Source of the DNA: Luteolibacter flavescens
GTDB taxonomy: Bacteria; Verrucomicrobiota; Verrucomicrobiia; Verrucomicrobiales; Akkermansiaceae
NCBI RefSeq assembly: GCF_025950085.1
Contig: NZ_JAPDDS010000010.1
Span: 62,001 to 126,000 of the forward strand
Length of the DNA stretch: 64,000 bases
Reading direction: 5' to 3'
In this document: positions 22,556-24,027 of the stretch, piece by piece
Numbering within the stretch: the first letter of the stretch is position 1
Layout of the letters: each line of letters starts with the position of its first letter
Made by a program: the position numbers and the translations under genes
Notes under the pieces: model-generated
What the model was told of the DNA's origin: nothing
Seen by the model: only the letters and a program-made list of their open reading frames with translations
Databases searched by the model: none

Positions 22556-22587
22556 TTGGGAGCGCGTGCCACCGGCTCGCTTAGCAG
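22556..22587 (+). repeat. dispersed intergenic repeat, copy 1, left fragment
   Basis: Bases 22557-22581 are the exact reverse complement of 24344-24368 in copy 2. The copy is cut here by the IS110 element and resumes at 23842. The fragment supplies the right half of the insertion target. Confidence 0.85.
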
Positions 22588-22595
22588 TGGTGTTT

Positions 22596-23531
22596 TCAGG
22601 CAAGGACGAAATCAGGGTTCGCCAGCAGTTTGTTCAGCACGCTGATCATTCTCCGCATCACCGCCACGATCGCCACTTTCGCGGGTTTGCCCGCCGCGAC
22701 GAGCCGGTCGTAGAATGCCTTCAGCACGGGGTTGGATCGCGCCGCCGAAAGCGCACCCATGTAGAGGACATGGCGCACTTCCTTGCGCCCGCCGCGGATC
22801 CGTCGCCTGCCGCAACTGTTGCCGCTGTCCTTGGGATGCGGGACCACGCCCGCGAGGCAGCCCACCGTCTTGTCCGGCAGCGTCCCCAGCTCGGGAAGGA
22901 AAGCAAGCAGGGTGTGGGCGACCACCGGCCCCACACCCTTCAGTTCGCACAGCCGCGCCGCCTTGCCTGCCAGCCGGGCGGATGAGGCCACATGGCTGGC
23001 AATGCGGGCGTCGGCCTGGTCGAGCAGGCGTTGGGTCGAGCGCAGCAGCTTGAGCAACATCTGGCGCAGGAATCCTTCGGCGTGCTCGAGGCGGTTGTTG
23101 GTGTCGGTGACGAGGTCGACCATCACCCGGCGGGCTTCCATCATCTGGCGCAGGGCGACGGCCTCGGAATCGGGTTCCACCATTACCGGAGGCGTGAGAG
23201 TGGCTCCGTAGGTGGACAGGAGCCGGGCATCGATGCGGTCGGTCTTGGCAAGCATGCCCGCGGCGAGGGCGAAATAGCGCACCCGCGCCGGCTGGACGAC
23301 CGAGACCGGCACGCCGCGCCGGAGACACGCGCCGGCGAGGAGCTTCTGATAGCCTGCGGTGGATTCGCAGACGAGATGGGGCGACGCCACGCCGGCGATA
23401 GCGGCGAAGAGATCCTCCAGCCCGCCGGTGGAATTGGCGACCTGCAGGTGGGGCTGTCCGGGGATGTGGACGTCGAGGCGTGCCTTTGACACGTCGATGC
23501 CGACATGGGTAGTAATGGTATGGTGGTTCAT
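22596..23531 (-). CDS. IS110-family DEDD transposase (bridge-RNA-guided recombinase)
   Basis: The product is 311 residues. The RuvC-like DEDD catalytic set reads D13 (GIDVSK), E56 (LVCESTAG), D98 and D101 (KTDRIDAR). The C-terminal Tnp domain has [21 protein letters not shown] and the serine-bearing [19 protein letters not shown]. These enzymes join donor and target DNA using a structured RNA made from the element's own non-coding end, cutting at a short core. Here the RNA-coding segment lies directly upstream of the ATG, as in the IS110 group rather than the IS1111 group. No frameshift or internal stop is present, so it may be active. Confidence 0.96.
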
Positions 23532-23695
23532 GGCTCAATCTTGCGATGCGGGTTCAAAGACCCATTCAGTGGTTCGAGCATTGAACCGGGAGCGGAAGCC
23601 GACGGCCATAAGCTAAGCGACGGACTCTGAGGTCCTGGACGGTCCCGGCCTGAAGGCATCCGCTGCGGGCGGGGGAGGCCACCCCCGCCCGCATT
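23532..23695 (-). ncRNA. IS110 bridge RNA with legible target guides
   Basis: Read in transposase orientation, three elements follow each other. (1) A perfect 11-bp 5' stem-loop, 23692-23682 with 23675-23665. (2) A target-binding loop: stem GGCC (23650-23647) with GGCC (23607-23604), apical stem GGAC (23635-23632) with GTCC (23625-23622); the 5' side of the internal loop holds GACCGTCC (23644-23637) and the 3' side TCGCTTAGC (23620-23612). (3) A donor-like loop: 8-bp stem 23587-23580 with 23539-23532, apical stem GGGT/ACCC, and ACCACT (23573-23568) on its 5' side. The first guide equals the left flank up to the core. The second is the exact reverse complement of the 9 nt after the core on the right flank. 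ACCACT equals the element's right end plus core. The right donor guide was not identified. Confidence 0.85.
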
Positions 23696-23714
23696 CTCCC
23701 GGAGCGTTGGCGAA

Positions 23715-23810
23715 GGAAGCACAAAGGGGTGCTTCCGGCGATCCGCCGCGGGTGACTTCCTCCGACGAGCTTTGTAAGGGCCCATTCTCGGAAGCCACCC
23801 GCGGCGGATC
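23715..23810. repeat. inverted repeats in the IS110 left end
   Basis: An 8-bp stem GGAAGCAC/GTGCTTCC (23715-23722 with 23729-23736) sits next to a 21-nt inverted repeat with one mismatch (23740-23760 with 23790-23810). They lie between the element's left boundary and the bridge RNA and may influence its transcription. Confidence 0.7.
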
Positions 23811-23841
23811 AGGGGTTTTGGGGTGGCATTTCTGAACATAC

Positions 23842-24027
23842 AGGACGGTCGAGCGAAGCACGGGTGAAAGCCGCTCCTCACCGGGAACTCACGCCTAGGA
23901 GCGCCGGTCATCAGACCGGCCCGAGTGGTCCCTGCTCGCGGATGGAGACTAGGTGACCCGGGGTAGGCTGCGACTTTGGGAAAGTAGAAGTGGTGACAAC
24001 GAAATAGGCGAAAAGGACGAAATTTGA
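23842..24027 (+). repeat. dispersed intergenic repeat, copy 1, right fragment
   Basis: This resumes the repeat interrupted by the IS110 element. It contains a GCCGGTC/GACCGGC hairpin at about 23902-23919 and a purine-rich CGAAA-containing tail to about 24027. The hairpin and its right flank (about 36 nt) match copy 2 in inverse orientation with one mismatch. No gene is seen between 23844 and 24395. Confidence 0.75.

Follow-up and report, generated by a model that had tools for sequence, protein, structure and literature searches.

The window analysed here, which is the whole stretch of 64,000 nucleotides from the genome of Luteolibacter flavescens (5.9 Mb, 71 contigs), carries an IS110-type transposase gene preceded by DNA in which short pieces of both flanks reappear, and the question that it raises is where the mobile element begins and ends, and by which guides it was directed to its insertion site. 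Bridge RNAs and REP-targeting IS110 elements are already established, from IS621, from ISPa11, ISPpu9, ISPpu10 and ISRm19, and from the seekRNAs. The initial annotation of this locus had proposed an IS110-group element whose left end carries a bridge RNA, with guides in the target loop that match both flanks and a donor loop that matches the right end, and this proposal was borne out both by the sequence and by related elements. Very probably, the window contains an IS110-group insertion sequence whose left end encodes a predicted bridge RNA (approximately 23532-23700, minus strand) with the REP-like sequence GACCGT-CC-AAGCGA as its target. The features of the locus are collected in Table 1.

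Table 1. Features of the element, its predicted bridge RNA and its target, in positions of the window.
Feature	Position	Strand	Basis
Whole element, TGTATG...ACCACTGCT, 1260 bp	22583..23842	-	ends from uninterrupted repeats, a 79% identical copy in another species (L016), relatives
IS110-type DEDD recombinase, 311 aa	22596..23531	-	Pfam domains, invariant residues, PDB matches
Right end: left donor ACCACTG plus donor core CT	22583..22591	-	ACCACTG equals left donor guide
Right donor TGTATG, opening bases of left end	23837..23842	-	register as in relatives with CT-TGTAT; IS621 right donor by residue names (in part of PMC11208158)
Left target half GACCGT plus target core CC	23843..23850	-	identical to left target guide
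Right target AAGCGA, start of REP-like repeat	22577..22582	-	repeat copies
26-bp repeat unit AAGCGAGCCGGTGGCACGCGCTCCCA, tens of genome copies	22557..22582	-	genome search
Extra hairpin 5' of predicted bridge RNA, 69 nt, 20-bp covarying arms around GAGAATGG...TCGTCGGA	23741..23809	-	alignment, covariation
5' stem-loop of predicted bridge RNA	23665..23692	-	fold
Target-binding loop	23604..23650	-	outer stem GGCC/GGCC stays paired with both-side changes, 9 sequences
Left target guide GACCGTCC	23637..23644	-	equals left flank 23850-23843; covariation test
Right target guide TCGCTT, core-facing AG, handshake base C	23612..23620	-	covariation, letter match
Donor-binding loop, ends at recombinase start codon	23532..23587	-	fold; inner stem stays paired with both-side changes
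Left donor guide ACCACTG	23567..23573	-	equals right end 22591-22585
Right donor guide AT-CG-CAAG, then handshake bases AT	23538..23547	-	tetramer complementary to CT plus first two right-donor bases, in 33/34 elements

The recombinase contains the Pfam domains DEDD_Tnp_IS110 and Transposase_20, that is, a RuvC-like DEDD domain plus a domain with a conserved serine, as in the IS110 family, and residues D13, E56, D98, D101 and S236 were invariant in an alignment of seven recombinase sequences. Among solved structures, it matched by sequence those of ISCro4 (9t56) and IS621 (8wt6), the ISCro4 transposase being the top match (E 1.8e-29), a likeness that comes from protein sequence comparison alone. 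The closest named relative found by tblastn was that of Haloferula sp. BvORR071 (73% identity); the same sequence is present in another genome of the window's genus (locus L016), where it is 79% identical to the window element at the DNA level. The left end is 311 nt long and holds the predicted bridge RNA, and the right end measures 13 nt from the stop codon to the end of GCT; on the criterion of a long left end with a bridge RNA and a short right end, the element belongs to the IS110 group and not to IS1111. A search of plasmids returned only short transposase matches, in 5 records.

The right flank of the element belongs to a 26-bp repeat that is present tens of times in its own genome, as is characteristic of short, many-copy REP sequences. 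In uninterrupted repeats, CC is immediately followed by AAGCG; the insertion point is therefore the exact boundary of CC and AAG, and the element runs from TGTATG to ACCACTGCT. CC directly precedes AAGCG in 43 of the 45 distinct repeat contexts in the retrieved loci, the two exceptions being the window's own junction (TGCT) and one context with GTCG. Similarly, 28 of 30 repeat rows from the genome are uninterrupted, 27 of them with CC before AAGCG and one with CG, and the remaining two are the window copy and a left-end remnant, L003. Moreover, when 0-5 bases were allowed between TCC and AAGCG, there was no intervening base in any of the 15 own-genome matches. The complete 14-letter target, GACCGTCCAAGCGA, has five exact matches in the genome, and 96 with at most two mismatches as compared to 56 for the reversed pattern. 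On the element's side, GCT (22585-22583) closes all three full copies compared, namely those of the window, of L002 in the same genome and of L016 in the other species, and the DNA past GCT differs in L002.

The repeat itself, CC followed by AAGCGAGCCGGTGGCACGCGCTCCC, is found in tens of places in the genome, and the pattern ACCRTCCAAGCGRGCC occurs also in genomes G019 and G064 (three of the 18 genomes of the genus, own genome counted). Some of its copies face each other, for example C4:81073-81095 (minus) and C4:81174-81196 (plus), and the fold of a repeat consensus gave no single clean stem. Two super-families of repeats are described in part of PMC3733652. Mobilisation by a RAYT was considered and rejected: the genome has three Y1_Tnp genes, but no repeat-core copy was found in their retrieved loci.

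The guides can be read directly against these ends, and their layout is of the IS621 type, with left and right target guides that match both target strands in one loop, and a left and a discontinuous right donor guide in the other. The left target guide spans eight letters including the core, and its identity to the left flank, already noted in the initial annotation, was confirmed letter by letter. At the right junction, TCGCTTAGC (23620-23612) had been described as the reverse complement of target DNA at 22585-22577; the letters are correct, but GCT is the element's own end and not target. Nine letters match across this junction because three of them pair with that end, the core-facing AG being complementary to the donor core CT, and the following C to donor base 7 (G). 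In the donor loop, ACCACT had been taken as the right end plus core, and here too the letters stand but the core had been misplaced: the match is ACCACTG, seven of seven letters, with A at the eighth against a donor C (L016 has C). The right donor guide, previously reported as missing, was found as AT-CG-CAAG at 23547-23540, in the arrangement A157-U158/C162-G165 that IS621 uses on donor CT-TGTAT (given in part of PMC11208158); across 34 elements its tetramer was lacking in one, and TAAG replaces CAAG where the element begins with TATAT.

The predicted fold of 23532-23700 comprises the 5' stem-loop, the target loop and the donor loop, and contains the GGCC/GGCC and GGAC/GTCC stems that had been described before, with a stability that only modestly exceeds that of shuffled sequences (z -2.24; 4 of 200 shuffles at least as stable). 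In nine related sequences, pairing was kept in 72 of 72 cells of two stems, the outer one of the target loop and the inner one of the donor loop, and 13 cells had changed on both sides, as compared to 4.0 in shuffles (0 of 500 reached that number). Counted by pairs, five of eight had changed on both sides, which 49 of 500 shuffles matched or exceeded; for further pair types, 497 of 500 did so. A consensus scan of the inserted form, in which a promoter created at the circle junction would be invisible, gave no sigma-70-like promoter on the element's strand.

Failure of the loop segments to covary with their own flanks in related elements had been named as an outcome that would speak against a bridge RNA, and the comparison came out in its favour. 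From 103 loci matching the recombinase, 43 were kept by the rule that both ends lie on the locus and that a donor guide matches a right end ahead of CT with no more than one mismatch; the other 60 had ends off the locus or lacked such a pair. As this rule favours the left donor guide, the agreement at that guide cannot count as independent evidence; the target guides can, though the right guide was sought only beside AG. In a non-redundant set of 24 elements with loops less than 80% alike (16 of them for the left guide), the right guide, taken as the six letters before AG, matched its own flank at 4.92 of 6 letters and swapped flanks at 2.31 (0 of 20000 permutations), and the left guide matched its own flank at 5.69 of 7 letters and swapped flanks at 4.67 (again 0 of 20000), so that the flank matches exceed chance, as had been claimed. 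The full set, with 43 right and 31 left guides, gave the same result. Five copies in one genome (L115 and L141-L144) match at eight or nine of nine letters on the left and six or seven of eight on the right. Poor right matches were found in L002, L045, L064 and L127 (three of six letters in L045 and L127), and eight of 30 left flanks match their guide at six or fewer of nine letters. The base after AG is C with G at donor base 7 in 22 of 24 elements, and T with donor A in two. Natural covariation at this handshake position is seen in L116 and L056, in which T (U) follows AG and the element's own end has A, not G. Likewise, the handshake base of the donor loop pairs with target base 7 in 13 of 16 elements (8.07 expected; 25 of 20000 permutations, G-U pairs counted).

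By analogy with IS621, the circle, the order of strand exchange and the handshake may be pictured as follows. Excision by the recombinase would produce a circle with the junction ACCACTG-CT-TGTATG, which would be held by the donor loop through its left (ACCACTG) and right (AT..CAAG) guides, while the target loop, through GACCGTCC and TCGCTT, would hold the repeat GACCGT-CC-AAGCGA. With the top strands exchanged just past the core, the products would be GACCGT-CC/TGTATG on the left and ACCACTG-CT/AAGCGA on the right, exactly the junctions seen, so that the left junction would retain the target core CC and the right one the donor core CT. After the exchange, the AG-C beside the right target guide would face the G-CT end of the donor as the handshake pairing. 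The right guide of IS621 stays on the right target as it pairs with the incoming donor core, and the handshake guide consists of the next two bases, which pair with donor bases 7 and 6 (both from portions of PMC11208158).

The donor core of this element is CT but its target core is CC, which departs from the IS621-type rule of CT in both; the departure speaks against a typical use of the core and not against insertion directed by guides. Among 31 elements with a left core read, 25 have CT and six have CC, the latter being the window element, L002, L016 and three copies in a Candidatus Binatia genome. These three (L056-L058, OX638375.1) belong to a distant IS110 element with a CC left core and a CT right core; two further Binatia copies, L059 and L065, are those in which the left core was not read. 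L056 lies within a tandem array of GTCACCCCGGG units, seen in its left flank, and the interrupted unit reads GTCACC before and CCGGG after the element; beyond CCGGG, the right flank departs from the unit. In the window's own lineage, six left junctions, including those of the remnants L003, L004 and L005, keep CC, which is what descent of the copies from the exchanged top strand, or mismatch repair in one direction, would produce.

The asymmetry would disappear if one T had been lost, such that the element starts with GTATG, both sides have CT as their core, the target is GACCGTC-CT-AAGCGA in a variant of the repeat with an extra T, and the circle reads ACCACTGCTGTATG in place of the two-T ACCACTGCTTGTATG. 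The predominance of CT among the left cores of relatives fits this, and so do L051, L061, L063 and L067, whose left guides end in CA next to a CT left core, as the window's would if shifted by one base. We nevertheless regard it as improbable, given that the extra-T repeat occurs in none of the 45 distinct contexts and in none of the 15 matches with 0-5 bases allowed, and that five left junctions beside repeat-like DNA (those of the window, L016, L003, L004 and L005) would each need the extra T. Moreover, the donor-loop handshake bases, AT in the window and AC in L016, pair with target GT when the core is CC, while with the T lost the first of them faces C; the CAAG guide fits CT-TG and not CT-GT; and the distant L056 displays the same pattern by its tandem empty targets, GTCACC-CCGGG.

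Less probable still, to a degree that leaves it little room, is the register of the initial annotation, which placed the core CT at 22587-22586, took GCT as target DNA, and predicted the target GACCGTC-CT-GCTAAGCGA, with GACCGTCCTGCTAAGCGA as the uninterrupted site. The complementarity of TCGCTTAGC to GCTAAGCGA over nine letters speaks for it. However, its core and right boundary are wrong by three letters, as GCT ends the copies in the window, L002 and L016 alike, and in relatives G-CT forms the last letters before their own, different targets. Furthermore, GCTAAGCGAGCCGG, the right half with the next repeat letters, is exact only at the element's own junction, and at most one mismatch adds six more places, one of them the remnant L003, for a total of 7 against 14 in the reversed control; the CC before AAGCG in nearly all repeat contexts also contradicts this register. 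That the segments are repeat DNA copied into the left end and guide nothing would explain matches by descent in an element that sits in a repeat, but it deserves almost no credence, as a stem-loop separates the two matching stretches, both are in guide orientation, and relatives match other targets at the same places.

The same genome contains other copies of the element. L002 (G000 C27:7913-9178), a second full copy that is 98% identical, lies at CATCC/TGTATG...GCT/TGGTCC, where the left flank fits the guide poorly and the right flank does not fit, which counts against the model; its site could be either an off-target insertion or the product of a later rearrangement. Three remnants retain the left end only, namely L003 (C15:88836-89103), L004 (C27:10269-10516) and L005 (C6:8319-8472), all with repeat-like left flanks that end in CC. 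L003 and L004 retain the target loop at least in part, with left guides altered to GTCCGTCC and GATTGTCC, respectively, from GACCGTCC, and L004 is interrupted by other DNA.

Between the left terminus and the predicted bridge RNA lies an additional hairpin. In an alignment of 18 examples, changes on both sides were found in 20 of 20 arm pairs and in 24 of all 27 pairs, with 112 cells changed on both sides as compared to 31.6 in shuffles (0 of 500), and GAGAAUGG and UCGUCGGA are nearly fixed. Pairing amounts to 89.7%, a value flattered by the choice of the set for paired arms, with slid and shuffled controls far lower. These 18 were drawn from 27 loci; nine (L018, L175, L177, L178, L182, L190, L191, L193 and L222) were excluded, in some cases because their arms were weak, and L175 and L182 (19 of 20 arm pairs) for adjoining other transposases, while L197 and L198 were retained even though their cut loci lack a recombinase gene. 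The hairpin was also seen in L016, L026, L027, L035-L037, L111-L113, L115, L123, L133, L187, L197, L198, L172 and L020, in the last of which it lies downstream of the IS110 gene.

A model of the hairpin matches 39 of 194 Verrucomicrobiota genomes (E 1e-4). Of 30 loci kept from that search, nine have an IS110-type gene by tblastn. In others, the hairpin adjoins genes for Transposase_mut (Mutator family; L312 and L313, the latter also with an IS110 gene), for rve (L303, L316) and for a REP_ORF2-G2P replication protein (L318), and in L312 and L318 it stands just upstream of the gene start, in the same direction. Many of the remaining loci are cut by contig ends. Viral stretches selected for the loop pattern match the model in five of 87 cases at E <=0.1, two of them below 1e-5. 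Among 36 sources, that is, the window and 35 IS110 loci, several of them from other phyla, matches were clear in the window and L034 and weak in L038 (E 0.076). No Rfam 15 family reached its gathering score on the hairpin; McaS and two microRNA families fell below theirs, and the two microRNA models, which lie on the long arms, were taken as chance. A comparison of the hairpin's loop with loop A of the hairpin ribozyme was set aside, as no loop B was noticed and a helix with a bulged A accounts better for AGAA/GUC. The simplest guess is that the hairpin is a 5' control element of transposase messages.

Taken jointly, two broader proposals seem possible to us, though we advance the pair tentatively and with some doubt. 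In the first, this would be a natural lineage of bridge recombinases whose cores are mismatched, the target having CC and the donor CT, and in which the left target guide fits CC and the right one fits the incoming CT, such that pairing would improve only after strand exchange and drive the reaction forward. In the second, the left-end hairpin GAGAAUGG..CUCGUCGGA, with its freely covarying arms, would not be private to IS110, but a control element shared by transposases and replication genes of unrelated Verrucomicrobiota mobile elements.

The closest parallel is IS621, also of the IS110 group, which shares with the window element the recombinase domains, a bridge RNA in a long left end, the order of left and right target guides and left and right donor guides, the right donor TGTAT, the discontinuous right donor guide AT..CAAG, the handshake bases and a REP-type target (according to parts of PMC11208160 and PMC11208158). 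In contrast, according to those same parts, the target core is CT in IS621 and CC here, and the left end has 191 nt in IS621 and 311 here; the extra hairpin is a further difference, and the targets are different repeats. ISPa11, ISPpu9, ISPpu10 and ISRm19 are also IS110-family elements inside REPs, with a fixed insertion point in the REP stated for the first three (in part of PMC1525189), but in other hosts and repeats, and at a time when guides were not known. The ISEc21 seekRNA (IS110 family) and the IS1111 seekRNAs are similar as non-coding RNAs with stretches that match both target strands (part of PMC11187229), while in IS1111 types the RNA is usually downstream and there are subterminal inverted repeats. 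In literature searches on IS110 and REP in Verrucomicrobia, bridge RNA, seekRNA, and IS110 with a conserved hairpin, the element, the CC target core and the hairpin were mentioned in no title or abstract opening.

Overall, the target program of such an element is readable from raw sequence, but a reading from inserted flanks alone goes astray by a few bases, and unoccupied copies of the target have to be compared. As a natural element directed at a repeat with many copies, it also offers a ready-made test case. If functional, the hairpin would be an undescribed structured element common to unrelated transposons. The CC/CT asymmetry departs from the nearly invariant T reported for IS621-like systems, and points to a wider targeting space.
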